A stretch of DNA of 64,000 bases, taken from positions 1-64,000 of the forward strand of contig SHBD01000003.1 in NCBI GenBank assembly GCA_004212735.1, written 5' to 3'. The first letter of the stretch is position 1; each line of letters starts with the position of its first letter. Position numbers and translations under genes: made by a program. The notes under the pieces are model-generated. The model searched no databases, was not told the DNA's origin, and saw only the letters and a program-made list of their open reading frames with translations. The stretch is from SAR116 cluster bacterium. GTDB taxonomy: Bacteria; Pseudomonadota; Alphaproteobacteria; Puniceispirillales; Puniceispirillaceae. Positions 28,645-62,332 of this stretch are shown here, piece by piece.

Positions 28645-30318
28645 CTAGGGCTGGAATTTCGGCATAGAGTTGAGAAGATGCTGGCTGTAGCTATGCTCTG
28701 GCGATGCGAATAGCTGTTCTGCGGCGGCAATTTCACACACCGCCCCGTCTTTCAGAACGGCGATGCGGTCACACATTTGCCGGACAACCGGCAGGTCATG
28801 GCTGATAAACAATATCGTCAATCCGAGTTTTTCCTGCAGATCCTTCAACAAATTCAGGATCTGTGCCTGAATGCTCACATCGAGCGCCGAAGTTGGTTCA
28901 TCACAGACAAGCAATTTTGGCTGCGTTGCCAAGGCACGGGCAATCGAAATGCGCTGTCGCTGCCCGCCAGAAAATTCATGGGGGTAGCGCTCCTTACTTG
29001 ACGCTGGCAAATCGACCGCGGCAAGCAGATCATCGACATAATGATCGATATCCGCCCGTTCCAGCCGCGCATTGTGATGGAGAATTGGCTCGGCGATGAT
29101 GTTTTTGATTTTCATACGGCCATTCAGTGACGAATAGGGATCCTGAAAAACCATTTGTATCTTGCGGCGAAAGGCGAGCAGGGCCGGCCCGTCAAGCGTT
29201 GTGATATCGTCCTGCTCAAAGAAGATTGCGCCGGACGTGGGTTCAATCAATCTGACGATCATCTTGGCGATGGTCGATTTACCACTGCCACTCTCACCAA
29301 CCAGACCAAAGGATTCACCCTCCCTGATCTCGAACGAGACATTCCTGACCGCATGGACGGGTTCATTTGTGCCAATGCGCATGAAACCCTCACTGGAAAA
29401 ACTCTTGCTGAGAGCCTCGACGCGCACCAGCGAGGCACCGGTGTTTTTCTGCAGCTGCCAGCGGTTGAGAATTTTCAGATTGTGGTCAGCCGCATGGTTC
29501 TGCTCGGCACCCATGATCGGGAAACGGTCAATGCGGCGGTCTGTCGGCGGGACTGAGCTGACAAGACTTTTCGTATAGGTCTGCGAGGGGGTGCCAAGCA
29601 CCGCAGCCGGGGCGCCCATCTCGACAATCCGCCCGTCCTTTAGCACCACAACCCTGTCGGCAACCTCGCTGATCACGGCCATGTCGTGGGTGATAAGGAT
29701 AACAGCAAGATTACGGTCTGCCTTTAGCTTCTGCAGCAATGCCAGAATCTGTGACTGGATGGAGACATCAAGCGCTGTTGTCGGCTCATCTGCGATCAGG
29801 ATATCCGGGTCAGCGCAGAGCGCGAGGGCAATCACGACCCGTTGGCGCATACCCCCTGAAAACTGGTGCGGATAATCGTTAAACCGGGCATCGGCATTGA
29901 TGATGCCGACATCGTCTAACAACGCGACCGCGCGTTTGCGGGCCTCATTGGCGTCCAGCTGCAGATGGGTCTGAATGGTCTCAATCAGCTGCTCGCCAAT
30001 TGTCATCACCGGGTTCAGCGAGGTTTGCGGGTCCTGAAAAATGAGGCCAATGCGCTTGCCGCGAAAGGAGCTGATCTCGGTGGCTGGATCAGCCAGATCA
30101 TGATTTTCCAGCTGGATCGTGCCACCCTCAATCTTTCCCGGCTCATCCAGCAACCCCAGAATTGCCCGGCCAATGGTGCTCTTGCCGGATCCGGACTCGC
30201 CGACAAGGCCCAGAATTTCACCCTTCCTCACGGAAAAGCTGACATCCTGTACAGCAGCCACCAAAAGCCGGCGTGTTGGATAGGAAATATTCAGATTGGT
30301 GATTTCTAGAAAATCCAT
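28645..30318 (-). CDS. Fused dual ATPase of a dipeptide/oligopeptide ABC transporter (DppD-DppF type)
   Basis: A 557-residue protein made of two ABC domains. The first has [23 protein letters not shown] and DEPTTALD; the second, from about residue 300, has [23 protein letters not shown] and DEPTSALD. Both carry the HDxxV-type switch and the C-terminal extension typical of peptide and nickel importers. ATG 30318 is chosen over an upstream TTG. Between its start and the permease stop lie three inserted 22-bp repeat units with five-codon mini-ORFs, an arrangement likely to influence its translation. Confidence 0.92.
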
Positions 30319-30403
30319 CAATTTATCTTCGGGTTGCCATCAATTTATCTTCGGGTTGCCATCAATTTATCTTCGGGTTGCCATCAATTTATCTTCGGAT
30401 TGA
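30316..30403 (-). repeat. 22-bp tandem repeat (four copies) forming a chain of mini-ORFs between transporter genes
   Basis: Four copies; the copy at 30382-30403 includes the last codons and stop of the permease gene and the copy at 30316-30337 includes the start codon of the ATPase gene. Without the three extra copies the genes would overlap as TGATG. Each extra unit reads ATGGCAACCCGAAGATAA on the minus strand, a five-codon mini-ORF with its stop 4 nt before the next ATG: 30367-30384, 30345-30362 and 30323-30340. Confidence 0.92.
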
Positions 30404-32344: not shown

Positions 32345-33907
32345 TCAGTTCACGGTCGCGAAGCGGAACAGAGGTTCGTTATTCGGACGGATTGGCACAT
32401 CCACATTGGACTTCGACGCCCATGAGATGACCTGATGGTGCAGCGGCAGATAGGAGATATCGTCGCTGACGATCGCCCATGCCTCGGCAATGGCGGCATT
32501 ACGTTTTGCCGGGTCAACCTCGACAACCATTGTCTGGATCAACTCATCAACGCGGGCATTGTCGAAACCGACCTTGTTCCAGCTACCCTTCGAATCATAC
32601 AGGAAGCTGAAGACATAGTGGCTGTCCAATGTCGGCACGCCCCAGCCCAGCATGTAGAAATCGCTGAGACCGTTTTTCAGATCCTGAAAATGTGTGCTCT
32701 TTGTCTGGGCGAACAGATTGACGTTGATGCCGACCTTGCCAAGCATGCCGACAACAGCCGTGCAGATCGCCTCGTCATTGACATAGCGGTCATTCGGGCA
32801 GTTCAGGGTGATGTCAAAACCATCGCCATAACCGGCATCGGCCAGCAGCTTCTTTGAGGCATCAGGGTCATAGGCAAGACGCGCATCAAGGTCCTTGGTA
32901 TAGCCGGTGACACCCGGGAAGGTGATGATGCCGGCAGGTGAACTCAGACCCCGCATGACCTTTTTCTTGATCGCTTCAATATCGATCGCCTGATAGAACG
33001 CCTGACGGACGCGCTTGTCAGCCAGCGGGTTCTTGCCCTTGATGTTTGATGAACGCAGCTCAGCACTGCCCTGATCCATGCCAAGGAAAATCGTCCGCAT
33101 CTGCTCAACGCTGTTCACGGTGTGACCAGCAGAACTGTCGATACGCTTGAGATCCTGCACCGGCGCATCTGTCACGATGTCAATCTCACCGGACAGCAGC
33201 GATGCCACGCGGGTGGCAGAATTGGCAATCGGATACAGCTCAATGCGGTCAAGATTATGCGCGACTGTACCCCACCAGCCGTCATTCTTTTCGAAAACGG
33301 TCTTGGTATCCTGTTCGCGCAGGGTGATCTTGAACGGGCCGGTGCCGTTTGCATTGCTCGAGGCAAAGGTTTTCTCATCAGCATTGAAATCGCCTGGAAG
33401 CGCCGAGTCGTTTGCCTTTGACCAGGCTTCAGACATCACAAAGATATTTGAGATCTGGTTCAGCAGAATGGGATTTGGTCCTTCGGTGACCAGCTTCACC
33501 TTGTCCGCGCCAACGGCCTCAACCGAGGTAACGCTGTCGATATATTCCTTGAAGTCAGAGGTCTTTGATTTCGCCCTGTTGAAGCTGAAAACAACATCTG
33601 ATGCTGTCAGCGGCGAGCCATCATGGAAGGTGACACCCTTGCGCAGCGTGAAGACCCATGTTGTCGGGTTCTCAATTGTCCACTCTGTTGCCAGCTGGGG
33701 CTCGATTGACATATCCAGCCCACGGCTCACCAACGCCTCATAAATCTGGCGCGAAACCATGGTTGTCGGACCTTCGTTCTGCTCATGCGGATCAAGCGTC
33801 AACGAATCACCCTTCATTGACCATTTTACCGTGTTTGCCTGTGCCGTTGATGCAACCGTCGCCAGCAACGCGACAGCCACAAATGACGTTATTTTTTTGA
33901 GATTCAT
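32345..33907 (-). CDS. Periplasmic peptide-binding protein (SBP_bac_5 family)
   Basis: A 520-residue secreted protein; the signal peptide ends at STAQA near residue 24. KGDSLTLDPHEQNEGPTTMV, GVTFHDGSPLTASDVVFSFN and ALVSRGLDMSIEPQLATEW are hallmarks of family 5 binding proteins, which bind peptides, nickel or sugars. With the DppB, DppC and fused DppD-F proteins it makes a complete importer. The ligand cannot be predicted. It is the first gene of the operon. Confidence 0.92.
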   Translation of the reverse strand: MNLKKITSFVAVALLATVASTAQANTVKWSMKGDSLTLDPHEQNEGPTTMVSRQIYEALVSRGLDMSIEPQLATEWTIENPTTWVFTLRKGVTFHDGSPLTASDVVFSFNRAKSKTSDFKEYIDSVTSVEAVGADKVKLVTEGPNPILLNQISNIFVMSEAWSKANDSALPGDFNADEKTFASSNANGTGPFKITLREQDTKTVFEKNDGWWGTVAHNLDRIELYPIANSATRVASLLSGEIDIVTDAPVQDLKRIDSSAGHTVNSVEQMRTIFLGMDQGSAELRSSNIKGKNPLADKRVRQAFYQAIDIEAIKKKVMRGLSSPAGIITFPGVTGYTKDLDARLAYDPDASKKLLADAGYGDGFDITLNCPNDRYVNDEAICTAVVGMLGKVGINVNLFAQTKSTHFQDLKNGLSDFYMLGWGVPTLDSHYVFSFLYDSKGSWNKVGFDNARVDELIQTMVVEVDPAKRNAAIAEAWAIVSDDISYLPLHHQVISWASKSNVDVPIRPNNEPLFRFATVN

Positions 33908-36820: not shown

Positions 36821-38028
36821 GCATCCAGAATGTCGTAACAGGCACCAAGCGTGTGATAGTCAACCTTGCCAGCAGGCGATTTATACGGCTCCATCCACTG
36901 CCCATCGCGGGTGAGGATGCGGAACCAGGCACCATGGCGGTGATCGACAAGATGATCCCAGGACCATTGCCATAGTCGCTGATAATGCTGCCGGTAGGAC
37001 TCGCTCCCGGTGACAGAAAACAGCCGCCAGGCCGCGGCTATGGCCTCTGCCTGCACCCAGAAATATTTATTGGCATCGCAGAAATCACCGTTCGGTGCGT
37101 AGCCATAGACCAGCCCACCATGGACCTCATCCCAGCCCTTTTCCATCGCCCCATCGAACAGCCCGCAGGCGCGTTCAATATGCCAGCCCTCCGGTCTGTG
37201 TCGATGCAGCTGCAGGATCAATTTTGCCCATTCAACCTGATGCCCGGGTTGATAGCCCCAAGGCTTGAACAGATCATCCGGCTTGTCGATGTTGTAGTCC
37301 CAATCATGCTGCCAGTCATTTGTGTAATGTTCCCAGATCTGGCCGTCGGTCGAGGCTGTCATTGTGACGGTAAATTTACCGGCAATTATGGCCGCGCGAT
37401 CAAGATAACGTGCCTCCCTCGTGCTTTCATAGGCGGCAAGCAATGCCTCAACCGCATGCATGTTGGCGTTCTGCCCCCGGTAGGGTAACAGGATGTCGAG
37501 GCTCTGGTCCCGTTCATCGGCATAGGCACCATGTTCCCCATCCCAGAACAATGCCTCCATCAACTGCCAGCTGTCGTCCAGCAATTCTGCCGCACCGTCA
37601 ATTTCGGCGCGCACCCCATAGGCCGCTGCCAACATGACAAAGGCGTGGCCATAGGCCATTGCCCGCGCATCTTCGATGTCTTTGCCATGTCGTTGCCAGC
37701 AGAAATGGCCGGGCAGATTTTGCCGGAGCGGGGGCATCTGGTGATGACTGCGCAGATAGGCAAGCCCATGTGCCGCCCAATCCCGATGCTGCTCATTGCC
37801 GCCATGCAGAAAGGCGCTGGCATAGTTGAAAACAAAGCGTGTGCTGCTGACCAGATGCCGTGTGCTGGCATCATAGACCGTGCCATCATCAAGAAAATGG
37901 TGGAAAAATCCCCCTTCGTGATCGCGGGCGTGCGGCGCATAGAAATTCAGAATGCTGGCAATGTGATCCCGCAGAAATGCCGGGCTCGTGAAGTCAGGAT
38001 AACTCGTGCAGTCAGGATAGGAGGTCAC
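36805..38028 (-). CDS. N-acylglucosamine 2-epimerase (AGE) family sugar isomerase
   Basis: A 407-residue alpha/alpha-barrel protein: LVSSTRFVFNYASAFLHGG, HFCWQRHGKDIEDARAMAYG, GQNANMHAVEALLAAYE and GYQPGHQVEWAKLIL hold the conserved Arg, His and Glu residues of the active site. Members isomerise mannose/fructose, sulfoquinovose/sulfofructose or N-acylglucosamine. The length and the GHQVEWAKLIL motif fit mannose isomerase-type members. The start is GTG, and the N-terminus contains a duplicated TSYPD unit encoded by an 18-bp direct repeat. It follows the Gfo/Idh/MocA gene by 14 bp. Confidence 0.9.
   Translation of the reverse strand: MTSYPDCTSYPDFTSPAFLRDHIASILNFYAPHARDHEGGFFHHFLDDGTVYDASTRHLVSSTRFVFNYASAFLHGGNEQHRDWAAHGLAYLRSHHQMPPLRQNLPGHFCWQRHGKDIEDARAMAYGHAFVMLAAAYGVRAEIDGAAELLDDSWQLMEALFWDGEHGAYADERDQSLDILLPYRGQNANMHAVEALLAAYESTREARYLDRAAIIAGKFTVTMTASTDGQIWEHYTNDWQHDWDYNIDKPDDLFKPWGYQPGHQVEWAKLILQLHRHRPEGWHIERACGLFDGAMEKGWDEVHGGLVYGYAPNGDFCDANKYFWVQAEAIAAAWRLFSVTGSESYRQHYQRLWQWSWDHLVDHRHGAWFRILTRDGQWMEPYKSPAGKVDYHTLGACYDILDAMAGS
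37985..38020 (-). repeat. 18-bp in-frame duplication at the N-terminus of the epimerase
   Basis: CTCGTGAAGTCAGGATAA and CTCGTGCAGTCAGGATAG are adjacent and differ at two bases. On the coding strand they give TSYPDC and TSYPDF-type units right after the GTG start, so the duplication lengthens the protein by six residues without shifting the frame. Confidence 0.85.
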
Positions 38029-51244: not shown

Positions 51245-52015
51245 TCAGGCGTCTGCCATGAAGCTGGCCGCCTCACGCACGCGCGCCGCATTGTCGCTGG
51301 CGATGCTGCCATCTGCCATATAGACCGAATTTTCAAAGCCGACCCGCACCTTGCCACCGGCGGCAATCGCCGCCTTCAGACAGGCAGCCTCTTCGGTTGC
51401 AAAGGCGCAAATGGCCCAGTCGCTGTCGATGCCGGCCTGTTTCATTTCGGCCAGAAACGACGGCAGCAATTCAGGATAGCTGATCCGCCCAGTGTAATGA
51501 CCGATGACAAACAGACACCAGATGCCCTGTCTCTCGAGTTCCGTCACAGCCAGCAGCTTTGCCAGCAACGCCACATCCTCAGGGCCGTAACATATATGTT
51601 GGATGCGGATGCCGGCTTCCTGCGACCAGTTGTAGAACGCCACATCCTCCGGTTTTGGCACGCCATCCGGGATCATTTCGCGAACCCCGACAGATGCCCC
51701 CTGCGGGACGACCGCGCGGACAATGTCGCGCATGTCATTTGGGTGATATCTGCCAACGGTTTCGGTGGTGATCTGCAGATGCATGTCCGGGACGACGCGT
51801 TGCAGTTCGGCAGTCGCCTCATGATACAGCCCCGCATCAAGAATGTGACCACCCTCCGCGTCACGCACATGATAATGGATGGCGCCAGCCCCGGCGTCGG
51901 CGCAGTCACGCGCGACAGCGGCGATCTCACCCGCATCAAGCGGCACCTGGGGGTGATCGGCCTTCACCTTGCGCGCGCCGTTCGGCGCAACCATGATTGG
52001 TGCCAGAGGAATCAC
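51245..52015 (-). CDS. BKACE-family beta-keto acid cleavage enzyme (DUF849)
   Basis: A 256-residue Zn-dependent enzyme of the 3-keto-5-aminohexanoate cleavage family. IMVAPNGARKVKADHPQVPL, AGAGAIHYHVRDAEGG (with two metal-binding His) and KVRVGFENSVYMADG are hallmarks. Members condense a beta-keto acid with acetyl-CoA, giving acetoacetate and a CoA thioester. The start is GTG, without a Shine-Dalgarno word; directly upstream lies a 15-bp repeat array that separates it from the DmdA-like gene. Sharing a strand with that gene suggests a linked pathway, but the keto acid is not known. Confidence 0.9.
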   Translation of the reverse strand: MIPLAPIMVAPNGARKVKADHPQVPLDAGEIAAVARDCADAGAGAIHYHVRDAEGGHILDAGLYHEATAELQRVVPDMHLQITTETVGRYHPNDMRDIVRAVVPQGASVGVREMIPDGVPKPEDVAFYNWSQEAGIRIQHICYGPEDVALLAKLLAVTELERQGIWCLFVIGHYTGRISYPELLPSFLAEMKQAGIDSDWAICAFATEEAACLKAAIAAGGKVRVGFENSVYMADGSIASDNAARVREAASFMADA

Positions 52016-52023
52016 AACAGCGG

Positions 52024-52067
52024 AGTTGACGACTGGGGAGTTGACGACTGGGGAGTTGACGACTGGG
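52024..52067. repeat. 15-bp tandem repeat, three copies, between the DmdA-like and BKACE genes
   Basis: AGTTGACGACTGGGG is repeated at 52024 and 52039, and a third copy at 52054 lacks the last G. The array begins 9 bp upstream of the GTG of the BKACE gene and occupies most of the gap to the preceding stop, displacing any ordinary ribosome-binding site. Confidence 0.9.
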
Positions 52068-52098
52068 ATGATGATGCGGTGCCAGACATAATCCTGAT

Positions 52099-56921: not shown

Positions 56922-57038
56922 CCAGGGCCTCGTAACTTCGTTTTAAATTCGAATTTCTTGAATATTATATGAATAAAATTTTGATTTTCAAATATGAAAT
57001 CTACTGTAATCTCAAACCAATCGTCTGGGGGGACACTT

Positions 57039-58559
57039 ATGACAGACAGTAATGCGACAGGCATTTCAACGCTTGATGCCGCCGGTATCAAAACATATTC
57101 AATGCTGATCAATGGCCACTGGTCACAGGCGGCAGATGCAAAATTATTCGACAGCGTCAATCCGGCCACGGGCAAATTGTGGTCGCGGGTTCCAGAAGCG
57201 ACAGCAGAGGATGTTGATCGTGCGGTAAGGGCGGCTCATGCCGCGCTTTATGACGGACCATGGGGCAGGATGACCGCCACTGAGCGTGGCCATTGCCTGC
57301 GCAGATTGGGAGATTTGCTTGCCGCGCACTCAGAAGAACTCGGCGCGGTGGAAACCACCGACACCGGCAAGATGCTGAAGGAAACGCGGTGGCAGGCAAA
57401 ATATATTGCCGAATATCTGCATTTCTATGCGGGGGCTGCCGACAAGGTGTCGGGTGAAACACTGCCAATCGACAAGCCGGATATGTTTGTCTTTACCGAC
57501 CGGGAGCCACTGGGCGTGATTGCGGCGGTTGTGCCGTGGAATTCGCAGCTGTTCTTGAGCGCGGTCAAGATCGGGCCGGCACTGGCCGCTGGCAACACGA
57601 TTGTTCTGAAAGCCTCGGAACATGCCTCGGCGGCGATGCTTGAATTTGGCGCCTTGATTGCCGAGGCCGGCATTCCCGATGGTGTGGTCAATATTGTCAC
57701 CGGCCATGGTGATCCCTGCGGCAAGGTGTTGACCTCACACCCTCTTGTCGCCCGTATCTCTTTTACCGGTGGCCCCATATCCGCACAGCATGTGATCCAG
57801 AATTCGGCGCAGAACTTTGCCGAAGTGTCGCTTGAACTGGGTGGAAAATCACCGTTCATTGTGTTTGAGGATGCGGATATCGAGAGTGCGGTCAATGGGT
57901 CTGTCGGCGGTATCTTCGCGGCGTCCGGGCAAAGCTGCGTTGCTGGGTCGAGGGTCTATCTGCATGAGGATATTGCTGATGAATTCCTGCAGCGGATGAC
58001 GGATATTGCCACTGGGATCCAGATTGGTGACCCCCTCGCCGAGGAGACTGAGATGGGCCCGCTCTGTACGCCGGCCCAGCTTGCCACGGTTGAACGCGAG
58101 GTTACCCACGCGCTGAGCGAGGGCGGCAGGCTGTTATGCGGCGGCAAGCGTGTTGCCGGTCTGGATGGCTTTTTCTACCAGCCAACCATCATCGAATGTC
58201 CAAGCCAGTCTCTGCGAATTGTCGATATGGAGCTGTTTGGCCCGGTGCTGTCGGTGATCAGGTTCAAGACCGAGGATGAGGTAATCGCGCTGGCAAATGA
58301 AACCAGACATGGTTTGGCAGCAGGTATTTTCACCCGCGACTCCGCCCGTTCCCTTCGCGTGGCCAAGGCGGTGCGGGCGGGAATCATCTGGGTGAATACC
58401 TACCGTGCAATCTCTCCGATAGCGGAATTTGGCGGCACCAAGACATCCGGCTATGGGCGCGAAAGCGGCTTTCAGGCGATCTATGACTACACGCGGCCAA
58501 AGACGGTATGGATGAATACATCCAGCACACCTCTGGCAAGCCAGTTCGCACCGCGCTGA
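57039..58559 (+). CDS. Aldehyde dehydrogenase, betaine-aldehyde dehydrogenase-like
   Basis: A 506-residue NAD(P)-dependent enzyme. SLELGGKSPFIVFEDAD holds the general-base Glu (about 267), ASGQSCVAGSRVYL the catalytic Cys (about 299), and VPWNSQLFLSAVKIGPALAAGN the cofactor site. GGGGGA before ATG 57039 supports that start over 56994. It opens a four-gene operon with a luciferase-like monooxygenase, a hydrolase and an Xsc-like enzyme. Substrate unknown. Confidence 0.92.
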   Translation: MTDSNATGISTLDAAGIKTYSMLINGHWSQAADAKLFDSVNPATGKLWSRVPEATAEDVDRAVRAAHAALYDGPWGRMTATERGHCLRRLGDLLAAHSEELGAVETTDTGKMLKETRWQAKYIAEYLHFYAGAADKVSGETLPIDKPDMFVFTDREPLGVIAAVVPWNSQLFLSAVKIGPALAAGNTIVLKASEHASAAMLEFGALIAEAGIPDGVVNIVTGHGDPCGKVLTSHPLVARISFTGGPISAQHVIQNSAQNFAEVSLELGGKSPFIVFEDADIESAVNGSVGGIFAASGQSCVAGSRVYLHEDIADEFLQRMTDIATGIQIGDPLAEETEMGPLCTPAQLATVEREVTHALSEGGRLLCGGKRVAGLDGFFYQPTIIECPSQSLRIVDMELFGPVLSVIRFKTEDEVIALANETRHGLAAGIFTRDSARSLRVAKAVRAGIIWVNTYRAISPIAEFGGTKTSGYGRESGFQAIYDYTRPKTVWMNTSSTPLASQFAPR

Positions 58560-58578: not shown

Positions 58579-59613
58579 ATGAAATTCCATCTCGCGGTCA
58601 ATCTGGAGCGGATGAATGATGCCACCGACATGATGGCGGTGCGAAAGCACACGCTGGAAATGGTGCAGATGGCTGATCGCGCGGGCTTTGAAATCGCCTG
58701 GGCGGCTGAACATCATGCCTTGGAAATGACGATTGCACCAAATCCGTTTCAACTGCTCACCTGGTGGGCTGACCACACCGAGACCATCCGTCTTGGCTCC
58801 GGTGTCGCCAATGCTGCCTACTGGCATCCGATCAACATCGCTGGTGAGGCGGCGATGGTCGATCTGATTTCTGGTGGACGTCTGGAATTTGGTCTTGGCT
58901 CGGGTGCCTATCAGCGCGAATTTGACCGAATGCAGCCTGGCCTCGATCAAAAGGACAGCTATCGCTACATGCAGGAAATGCTGCCGCTTGTGCGCCAGCT
59001 CTGGCAGGGTGACGTGGCGCATGAGGGCGAGTTCTGGCAGTTTCCAACGGCAACATCCTGTCCAAAACCGGTGCAAAATGAGGTGCCGTTCTGGGTTGCG
59101 GCACGCTCGCCCATTACATTTGATTATGCCGTCGCCAATGATTGCAACATCATGAGCTGGCCATTGACCCTGCCGATGTCCGAGGCCGAGAAATACCGCC
59201 AACATCTTGATGGGGCCATCGACAGGGCGGATAACGGGTGGGCAGGAAGTTTTGCCATGATGCGTCACACGGCTGTCTATGCAGACGCTGCCGACCGCAG
59301 TGCTGCGATTGCTGCCATCCGCAACGTGCTGGCGCAATTTGGCAATCTGATGATGAAGCGTGGCACGGTTGAAAACGGGTTTCCGGAGCCGGTCCCATTT
59401 TCTGAGCTGGAGGGTAATGTCCGGGTTGATCCTGATATGCTGGAGGAAAATCTGATGTTTGGCACGCCCGATCAGGTGATTGCCAAATTGCAGGATTATC
59501 AAAAGCTGGGGGTCGATGCTTTCATCTATTATGCGTCGATGGGTCTTGGTATGGATGGACAGAAACGCTCGATGGAGCTGTTCTGTAAGGAAGTCATGCC
59601 TGCCTTTCAGTAA
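58579..59613 (+). CDS. Luciferase-like (LLM) flavin-dependent monooxygenase
   Basis: A 344-residue TIM-barrel oxidoreductase using FMNH2 or F420-type flavin. AAEHHALEMTIAPNPFQLL, IRLGSGVANAAYWHPINIAGE and SGGRLEFGLGSGAYQREFDR are typical, as is GTPDQVIAKLQDYQKLGVD near the end. Members attack sulfonates, sulfides, long-chain alkanes or amines. Nineteen bp after the aldehyde dehydrogenase stop. Its stop codon lies in the first unit of a 15-bp repeat array. Confidence 0.9.
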   Translation: MKFHLAVNLERMNDATDMMAVRKHTLEMVQMADRAGFEIAWAAEHHALEMTIAPNPFQLLTWWADHTETIRLGSGVANAAYWHPINIAGEAAMVDLISGGRLEFGLGSGAYQREFDRMQPGLDQKDSYRYMQEMLPLVRQLWQGDVAHEGEFWQFPTATSCPKPVQNEVPFWVAARSPITFDYAVANDCNIMSWPLTLPMSEAEKYRQHLDGAIDRADNGWAGSFAMMRHTAVYADAADRSAAIAAIRNVLAQFGNLMMKRGTVENGFPEPVPFSELEGNVRVDPDMLEENLMFGTPDQVIAKLQDYQKLGVDAFIYYASMGLGMDGQKRSMELFCKEVMPAFQ

Positions 59614-59652
59614 CAGGCTTGGCAGTAACAGGCTCGGCAGTAAGAAGATTGG
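59608..59652. repeat. 15-bp tandem repeat seeded at the monooxygenase stop codon
   Basis: CAGTAACAGGCTTGG, CAGTAACAGGCTCGG and CAGTAAGAAGATTGG follow each other. The CAGTAA of the first unit is the last codon and stop of the monooxygenase gene, so the two further units repeat the gene's end. Confidence 0.88.
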
Positions 59653-59674: not shown

Positions 59675-59848
59675 ATGGACGTGGCTGCGATGACAGGACA
59701 AAGCAATGGCAACTGTGGGGGCACAGCCTATTCGTGGCATCCCGCCGATGATCGCAAAAGTGATGCCCGCGTGCCCAATACAGGGGTGCCCAATACAGGG
59801 TGCCCAATACAGGGGTGCCCAATGCCGGGGTGCCCAATGCCGGGGTAA
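59675..59848 (+). pseudogene. N-terminal fragment of the alpha/beta hydrolase, cut off by a frameshift in a repeat
   Basis: A frame starting at ATG 59675 (GAGAGGA 10 nt upstream, the best ribosome-binding site here) encodes MDVAAMTG and then GTAYSWHPADDRKSDA, which is the kind of segment that precedes the first core strand in alpha/beta hydrolases. It runs into the repeat as VPNTG VPNTG and leaves frame at 59798 because the second repeat unit has three G instead of four. With one more G it would join the hydrolase frame to give a protein of about 313 residues. Confidence 0.65.
59771..59844. repeat. 15-bp in-gene tandem repeat, five copies, one of them 14 bp
   Basis: Units GTGCCCAATACAGGG at 59771, the same lacking one G at 59786 (14 bp), full length again at 59800, then GTGCCCAATGCCGGG at 59815 and 59830. 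Read in frame they encode VPNTG or VPNAG. The G-tract at each junction (three or four G) is a typical slippage site. Confidence 0.93.
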
Positions 59849-60615
59849 TTGTCCTGATCCATGGGCTTGGCCTGACACGGGGCACTTGGGATGGGCATCT
59901 GTCGGCGTTGCGCCAGCGTCATGATGTTCTCACCTATGACCTTGCCGGGCATGGTGAGTCTGATATGCCGCTGGGCACACCGGATTTGACGCTATTCGCC
60001 ACCCAGTTATGTCACCTTCTTGACCGGCTGGAAATTGAGACGTGCCATCTGGTCGGCTTTTCACTTGGCGGCATGATCAACCGCCGGTTTGCCATGGATC
60101 ACCCCGACAGGGTTTGCTCGCTGGTGATTCTGAATTCACCCCATGAGCGATCGCAAGATGCGCAGGCGCTTGTTGAAAAACGTGCCGCCGACACCCGAGG
60201 CGGTGGCCCTGGCGCCAACATTGATGAGACATTGGCACGCTGGTTCACGCCAGATTTCATCAGTGAAAAACCGGATATCGTTGCCGATGTCCGCGCTTGG
60301 GTTCTGGCAAATGACTCGCAAAGCTATGCCGCCTGTCGTGCTGTTCTGGCGCATGGCGTGCGTGAATTGATCAGACCGGAGCCAGCGATCGGGCATCCGA
60401 CACTGGTTGTCACCTGCGAGAATGACAGCGGCAGCACGCCGGCAATGTCGCATGCCATTGCCACTGAAATCTCCGGCGCGCAGGTGGAGGTCATTCCCCG
60501 GCTGCAGCATCTTGGCCTCATCGAGGCCCCGGGCCTCTTCACAACACCAATTCTGCGGTTTATTGAGGGGCTCTCCTCTGACTGCCAACCCAGCCACTCC
60601 CCGGCCAATGTCTAG
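59800..60615 (+). CDS. Alpha/beta hydrolase
   Basis: The longest uninterrupted frame gives 271 residues starting at a GTG inside the repeat. VIVLIHGLGLTRGTWDGHL is the first strand and oxyanion loop, HLVGFSLGGMINRRFA holds the nucleophile Ser (about 88), and VTCENDSGSTPAMSH and RLQHLGLIEAPG carry the acid and His. Similar to lactonase- and esterase-type family members. Whether it starts at the GTG, or is normally made as part of a longer protein after frame restoration from ATG 59675, is open. It lies 13 bp before the ThDP enzyme gene. Substrate unknown. Confidence 0.85.
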   Translation: MPNTGVPNAGVPNAGVIVLIHGLGLTRGTWDGHLSALRQRHDVLTYDLAGHGESDMPLGTPDLTLFATQLCHLLDRLEIETCHLVGFSLGGMINRRFAMDHPDRVCSLVILNSPHERSQDAQALVEKRAADTRGGGPGANIDETLARWFTPDFISEKPDIVADVRAWVLANDSQSYAACRAVLAHGVRELIRPEPAIGHPTLVVTCENDSGSTPAMSHAIATEISGAQVEVIPRLQHLGLIEAPGLFTTPILRFIEGLSSDCQPSHSPANV

Positions 60616-60628
60616 AAGGAAAGATCTC

Positions 60629-62332
60629 ATGGGCAAGATTGTTAACAAGATGATGTCAGGTGGCCAGGCGGCGGTAAGGGCACTGCAGGTTGAAAAAACC
60701 GAATATGTGTTTGGCTTGATTGGATCTGCCACAATGGAAATGTTTGATGCGCTGTATGATGCTGATGACATCAATTTCATCGGCATCCATGATGAACGCA
60801 CCGGAACACACATGGCCGATGGATATGCGCGCGCGTCAGGGCGTGCTGGCGTTGTTCTCGCTGGCCAGAATGGCCCGGGGGCGACCAATCTTGTCACCGG
60901 CCTTGCCCAGGCGAAGGCGGCGTTCTCGCCGGTGGTCTCGATTGCCGGGGCGCTGTCGAGCGAGCATCAATATCGTGACGCCTTTCAGGAAGTAGACCAA
61001 CAGGCGTTGTTCACACCCGTCACTAAGAAAACCTGGACTGCGCCACGTGCAGACCGCGTCCCCGAACTTTTCCGTGAGGCCTTCCGGCTTGCGTTGACGC
61101 CGCGCATGGGCCCGGTACAGCTGAATTTGCCGCGCGACGTGTTGGCGGCGCAAATCGATTCTCCGGAGTTTCAGGAACCACATCAATACCGAATGGCATC
61201 ACGGCCTGCGGGTGCCACCTCGGAGATTGCCGCTGCGGCAGCATTGCTGGGCGGGGCGGCTCGACCGGTGATTGTTGTTGGCGGTGGCATAAAAAATACA
61301 GGTGGAGAGGATGCTGCGCTGGGGCTTGCCACGGCGATCAATGCACCACTTGTTGCGGCCCCCGGTCATGGTGATGCGATTTCTTTTGGTCACCCCCTGA
61401 ATGCGGGTCAGATGGGCCCGAGAGGCAATGCAGTGGCGTCACGACTGGTCCGCGAGGCCGATGTCATTCTGGCCTTGGGAACGCGGCTTGGTTTCAACTC
61501 CACCTTCTATTCCTATGACAACATCAATCGTGATGCCAAAATCATCCAGATAGAGTTGGAGCCAACTGCCATTGGTCGCTATTTCCCGATTGAAATTGGG
61601 ATTTGGGCAGACGCCCCTACGGCGGCCCTGCAACTGGCCGATGCCATTTCCGTTCAGCAGGCGCGTTCTGCCGTCGACGCCTGGACCGCACAGTTTCAGG
61701 ATGACCGCGCCGCCTATCGTGCCCAGTGTGACGCCGATGCGGTGCTTGATACAGCGCTGATTCAACCCTCCGGCCTTTTCAAGACGTTGCGTGATGTATT
61801 GCCTGCCGAGGCAGCTTTTACCATGGATGCGGGGACATTATGTCTACAGGCGACCGACGCAATGAATTACTGGCATCCAAAATCTCTGTTCACGCCTCTG
61901 GATTTCGGTCTTGTCGGTTTTTCTTTCTCGTGTGGCCTCGGTGTGAAACTGGCAAATCCTGAACGGCCAGTTATCTCGATGATGGGTGATGGTGGTTTCG
62001 GCATGACCATTTCTGAACTCAGTACAGCGGTGGATTATGGCATCAACACCGTGACCATCGTGATGAACAATCAATGTTGGGGGGCGGAGAAAGCCTATCA
62101 GAGAGATTTTTTCAATGGGCGCTATATCGGGGCGGATGTCTCAAGCCCGTCCTTTGACAAGGCGGCCGAGCTTTATGGTGCGGCAGGTTTCAAGGTTGAC
62201 CATCTTGACCAGATTGGTGACGCTGTCGGCGCGGCTCTCGCTGCCAACAGGCCAGCGGTCATCGACGTATCTGTTGATCCTGCCGCTCTCTACAGTTTCC
62301 GCCGGGATAGTTTCAAACACCGGGGAGGGTAA
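60629..62332 (+). CDS. ThDP-dependent enzyme, sulfoacetaldehyde acetyltransferase (Xsc)-like
   Basis: A 567-residue enzyme of the acetolactate synthase superfamily. GLIGSATMEMFDAL, LAGQNGPGATNLVTGL, DAFQEVDQQALF and NNQCWGAEKAYQRDFFNGRY match the Xsc pattern, as does the end SFRRDSFKHRGG; GDGGFGMTISELSTAVDYG is the ThDP motif. Xsc splits sulfoacetaldehyde to sulfite and acetyl phosphate; the divergence at the active site leaves room for another 2-oxo or aldehyde substrate. GAAGGAAAG precedes ATG 60629. The TauE/SafE exporter at 46.5 kb would suit sulfite release. Confidence 0.85.
   Translation: MGKIVNKMMSGGQAAVRALQVEKTEYVFGLIGSATMEMFDALYDADDINFIGIHDERTGTHMADGYARASGRAGVVLAGQNGPGATNLVTGLAQAKAAFSPVVSIAGALSSEHQYRDAFQEVDQQALFTPVTKKTWTAPRADRVPELFREAFRLALTPRMGPVQLNLPRDVLAAQIDSPEFQEPHQYRMASRPAGATSEIAAAAALLGGAARPVIVVGGGIKNTGGEDAALGLATAINAPLVAAPGHGDAISFGHPLNAGQMGPRGNAVASRLVREADVILALGTRLGFNSTFYSYDNINRDAKIIQIELEPTAIGRYFPIEIGIWADAPTAALQLADAISVQQARSAVDAWTAQFQDDRAAYRAQCDADAVLDTALIQPSGLFKTLRDVLPAEAAFTMDAGTLCLQATDAMNYWHPKSLFTPLDFGLVGFSFSCGLGVKLANPERPVISMMGDGGFGMTISELSTAVDYGINTVTIVMNNQCWGAEKAYQRDFFNGRYIGADVSSPSFDKAAELYGAAGFKVDHLDQIGDAVGAALAANRPAVIDVSVDPAALYSFRRDSFKHRGG

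Follow-up and report, generated by a model that had tools for sequence, protein, structure and literature searches.

Repeat-dependent reading frames in bacteria are described for the poly-G/C contingency loci of Neisseria and Campylobacter. These loci rely either on homopolymers of at least about 7-8 or on units whose length is not a multiple of 3; their switching is reversible and rapid (PMC5084427, PMC4965091). Switching depends on length: tracts of 8 or more are predominantly variable (PMC5084427), and variable loci have tracts of 7 or more in PMC4965091. A second described class is formed by bacterial coding VNTRs, which are reported mostly in surface proteins (PMC3899988). Here we analyse a hydrolase gene of a SAR116 (Puniceispirillales) bacterium, whose draft genome comprises 66 contigs and 2.49 Mb; the gene lies in a contiguous stretch of 64,000 nucleotides (hereafter the window). 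As in the contingency loci described in PMC5084427 and PMC4965091, the joining of the start to the core hangs on a repeat-borne indel; unlike in those loci, the G3/G4 runs sit inside 15-bp units. With coding VNTRs (PMC3899988) the gene shares intragenic tandem units of more than 10 bp, length change by slippage or recombination and coding units biased against frameshifts; it differs in that the protein is a soluble catabolic enzyme and in that one unit is a base short. The closest solved relative of the enzyme is PcaD (2xua), yet identity is only about 30% and, unlike PcaD, the window hydrolase is encoded in an operon with an aldehyde dehydrogenase (ALDH), a luciferase-like flavin monooxygenase (LLM) and a thiamine-pyrophosphate (TPP) enzyme, with no pca cluster.

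A short repeat unit separates the hydrolase start from its core

The array lies on the forward strand at 59771-59844 (TRF score 117; period 15 bp x 5.1) and consists of five copies of GTGCCCAAT(ACA/GCC)GGG starting at 59771, 59786, 59800, 59815 and 59830, with lengths of 15, 14, 15, 15 and 15 bp. Unit 1 (59771-59785) encodes VPNTG. Unit 2 (59786-59799) is one G short and is the frameshift site: it alone has GGG before the next GTG, whereas the other units run into GGGG. Units 3-5 (59800-59844) are in the core frame and supply GTG codons at 59800, 59815 and 59830. These coordinates bear out the sequence-only reading, which had described five VPNTG/VPNAG units, the second of 14 bp with GGG in place of GGGG. 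Relative to the same-genus genome G004, the site has gained a net 74 bp (5x15-1).

The true 5' end of the gene (59675-59770, forward strand) begins at ATG 59675 and encodes MDVAAMTGQSNGNCGGTAYSWHPADDRKSDAR. The frame from this ATG enters the array in register and, because unit 2 lacks one G, leaves it one base out, reading MDVAAMTGQSNGNCGGTAYSWHPADDRKSDAR-VPNTG-VPNTG and then CPIQG-CPMPG-CPMPG up to a TAA at 59846-59848. It is the missing G that keeps this frame out of register with the alpha/beta hydrolase core (PcaD/RutD-like, Pfam PF00561/PF12697), an ORF at 59800-60615 on the same strand. The hydrolase frame contains no ATG, GTG or TTG upstream of GTG 59800, and GTG 59800 has no well-spaced Shine-Dalgarno sequence. 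Further copies of the unit elsewhere in the genome were limited to one site with one mismatch, and viral contigs gave no match to variants of the array or of the leader.

The flanking genes, all on the forward strand, encode the ALDH (56994-58559, PF00171; near homologous hydrolases in 34 loci), the LLM (58579-59613, PF00296; 54 loci) and the TPP enzyme (60629-62332, PF02775/02776/00205; 49 loci). Many loci of alpha- and gammaproteobacteria show the same operon around a homologous hydrolase. It is a conserved catabolic unit of a class for which phase variation is not usual, as the first reading also remarked. The ALDH gene is largely missing in G004 (contig C9, locus L010), where the alignment is limited to about 80 residues at the C-terminal end; around this gap the region is otherwise collinear with G004.

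The gene is intact in same-genus relatives and its core is conserved

Orthologues are carried by two genomes of the same genus, G001 (L009) and G004 (L010), with core identities to the window hydrolase of 81% and 80%, respectively; each species was represented by one genome. Both genes are intact and open with an in-frame ATG and a peptide homologous to those at 59675. The array site holds five unit-equivalents in the window, two in L009 (GADAG-VPDAG) and one in L010 (GADAG). A coding minisatellite (VNTR) is defined by intragenic tandem units of more than 10 bp whose copy number varies between relatives; the array, placed between the conserved start and the core of one gene, has both features. 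Across 21 relatives, a G-T-A-Y strand (59720-59743 in the window, forward strand) is found just upstream of the array point and V-x-V-L-I-H-G-L-G just downstream. The two same-genus genomes settle the ancestral state: the gene was intact and began at the ATG that corresponds to ATG 59675. The same comparison supports the view that the upstream frame and the hydrolase core are one gene, one base apart. That one added G joins the two had been proposed before any relatives were consulted; it agrees with the intact gene and homologous start in L009 and L010, and the wider family lends further support, as it too has an N-terminal strand encoded upstream of the array. A start at GTG 59800 with the same array length, if shared by relatives, would have told a different story; instead, the start of both relatives corresponds to ATG 59675, and they have fewer units. 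We therefore rejected a native start at GTG 59800, where no relative begins and which lies downstream of the conserved GTAY strand. Also rejected was an apparent split N-terminus at 32345-33907: the additional N-terminal residues of G004 seem to come from an over-extended ORF, and both genomes keep the likely start and signal peptide (MNLKKITSF / MYLKKITSF) in frame.

The hydrolase reaches the gathering score of PF00561/PF12697 and has the catalytic Ser, Asp and His of the alpha/beta hydrolase fold. The presumed triad comprises the serine of Gly-x-Ser-x-Gly, an Asp and a His, and the S, D and H columns are invariant in the 21 relatives. In NCBIfam the best relatives are PcaD-type enol-lactonases, all below cut-off, the PcaD (3-oxoadipate enol-lactonase) equivalog scoring 160 bits against the 255.85 required. 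The match to enol-lactonase 2xua has E = 5e-41 by sequence profile and E = 1e-25 by fold. In the AlphaFold2 model of the L009 protein (mean pLDDT 90.1), the sequence upstream of the array accounts for two edge strands (residues 10-14 and 17-22), and the array itself maps to loop 23-37, where confidence is lowered, ahead of the strand VIVLIHG (38-42). The initial description of the array as preceding the first core strand is therefore at odds with the model. The model suggests instead that the array occupies a tolerant loop and that the frameshift would cut the first two strands from the remainder.

The core dN/dS is 0.20-0.22 when the window is compared with its relatives and 0.21 when the two intact genes are compared with each other, and there are no stops in 255 codons. 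These values show purifying selection on the core. With dN/dS at about 0.2 and no stops, an old pseudogene is ruled out; the break therefore happened recently, or is no real break, or leaves the gene partly active. A paralogue with 45% identity is present at G000:C56:19644-20411 (L002), in a 499-codon open frame, and also occurs in G003; this paralogue might in part substitute for the split gene.

A second uncoupled gene and an array-rich genome

The window holds a second gene in which start and core are uncoupled at an array. It encodes a BKACE protein (PF05853) on the reverse strand at 51245-52089, with the core running from 51994 to 51245 and the conserved start at ATG 52089, assigned by profile match and homologues. 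In 23 out of 23 BKACE homologues examined, the internal Met of the core is preceded by an in-frame ATG at a distance of 5-17 codons. In the window, the core is not in frame with ATG 52089, which lies 95 nt from the internal ATG (36 in G004); between start and core stands a perfect array of three 15-bp units (15 bp x 3.1) at 52022-52067. The stop of the upstream frame, TGA, overlaps the core-frame GTG 52015 (GTGA), a geometry by which coupled termination-reinitiation at this GTG is possible.

Arrays are abundant in this genome. There are 17 in the window and only 1 in the largely collinear 64-kb G004 contig, at about 80% nucleotide identity. When the window was simulated 50 times with an order-2 Markov model, 64 kb contained 0.22 arrays on average and the best array scored 59; the array at 59771-59844 is far beyond chance. 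The window exceeds G004 by whole units at 30315 (+66 bp, 3 x 22), and array gains are likewise seen at 37985 (+18) and 59608 (+30). The latter corresponds to two units of a second minisatellite near the hydrolase gene (59608-59643, forward strand, 15 bp x 2.4), which covers the 3' end of the upstream gene and sequence just past it and is absent from both relatives. The array at 30315-30402 (22 bp x 4) falls at a gene junction where G004 has exactly one unit; judging from translated ends, the flanking genes apparently encode an ABC transporter permease and ATPase.

To put these counts on a genome scale, 837 kb was sampled in stretches (G000 L117-L136, L184-L203 and L212-L215). Inside ORFs, 30 of 36 arrays have a period divisible by 3; outside them the figure is 26 of 68 (p = 1e-5, Fisher test). 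Most coding arrays are translated in frame. The lineage-specific periods range over about 9-42 bp. The burst is genome-wide and uneven: arrays cluster over 20-kb pieces (dispersion index 4.8, p about 1e-20), most pieces holding 0-3 and 8 of 38 holding 5-11. Array-rich pieces (e.g. L126, L131, L132, L134, L191 and L201) tend to have higher GC and GC3; array-free ones include L117, L119, L120, L122, L123 and L127. The array in the hydrolase gene is in keeping with this background: a young coding minisatellite, in frame but for one aberrant unit.

Discussion

We lean, by a little, toward a real and recent loss of 1 bp, not programmed, from a young coding minisatellite that is otherwise in frame. 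A 15-bp minisatellite would have expanded in this lineage in the loop between strands 2 and 3 of a PcaD-like hydrolase, a loop that presumably tolerates five-residue insertions. Unit 2 would then have lost one G, either during the slippage that made it or later, with nothing programmed about the loss. Translation from the native ATG 59675 would end at TAA 59846, leaving the core without its native start, and any core product would have to come from a poor GTG within the array, without the two edge strands of the N-terminus. We infer a loss of function: the gene is most likely off or strongly reduced in the sequenced genome. Against this reading stands the similar uncoupling of the BKACE gene at an array, which one chance mutation leaves unexplained.

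The main rival is an artefact of sequencing, amplification or assembly, the true genome having five 15-bp units and an intact gene. This is possible, if less probable. Errors classically occur at sites such as this, a G run within a tandem repeat that differs by a single base; the source is a draft in 66 contigs, and the selection on the core is intact. However, the G3/G4 run is short, a 74-bp array would presumably fit one ordinary short read, and about 45 orthologues compared with G004 revealed no other clear frameshift. The BKACE case also weighs somewhat against a lone homopolymer error, since its array is perfect, with no aberrant unit, and the gene is nonetheless out of frame. The deletion is somewhat more probably a real event than a sequencing error. 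Of the alternatives originally listed, error and simple mutation survive as the leading explanations, whereas old decay does not, given the dN/dS and the stop-free core.

Other readings are minor. Functional restart from an array GTG (59800, 59815 or 59830), perhaps coupled to the upstream frame and yielding a shortened working enzyme, seems unlikely. Every core-frame unit does offer an in-frame GTG, and the BKACE overlap has a coupling geometry. In the hydrolase, however, the nearest GTG is 16 nt upstream of the TAA with no overlap, the Shine-Dalgarno is not well placed, no relative starts at an array GTG, and the product would be missing the conserved GTAY hairpin.

Reversible phase variation, in which the G tract or the 14-bp unit would toggle the gene between on and off states across a population, is distinctly improbable. 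A frame-breaking unit near the N-terminal side of the gene is suggestive, and by arithmetic the frame would be restored if slippage deleted 14 or 29 bp and the 14-bp unit with them. Yet that loss would be one-way and irreversible, four of the five units are 15 bp and their gain or loss leaves the frame unchanged, and runs of G3 versus G4 are far below the switching lengths reported (PMC5084427). G/C runs of at least 8 are nearly absent from the genome sample, with 3 in all across 837 kb, and the target is a soluble catabolic enzyme. The architecture that the sequence-only reading took for phase-variable is on these grounds unlikely to be a reversible switch.

Programmed -1 frameshifting at CAG-GGG or CCG-GGG is hardly credible: the shifted-frame glycine codons do sit on GGGG, the last directly before the TAA, so that a P-site slip would reach the core frame, but the canonical X-XXY-YYZ heptamer is absent, RNA structure is not stronger than in shuffles (z = -0.20), and the relatives have no need of recoding.

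Beyond the preferred deletion, one may speculate, with little confidence, that minisatellite bursts in chromosomal islands of this SAR116 lineage repeatedly split conserved starts from enzyme cores, as in the hydrolase and BKACE genes of one window; through the turnover of arrays, catabolic genes would then vary diffusely in their on/off state or start site. A single split hydrolase in a draft genome is in itself a minor matter. Its value is as a worked example, with a minisatellite seen at 1, 2 and 5 units in the same loop and a frame-breaking unit in the sequenced genome. The uncoupling of start and core in the BKACE gene is the most interesting by-product and the part most worth following. 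The more general point concerns the lineage itself, which carries a genome-wide load of minisatellites with a strong in-frame bias within genes.
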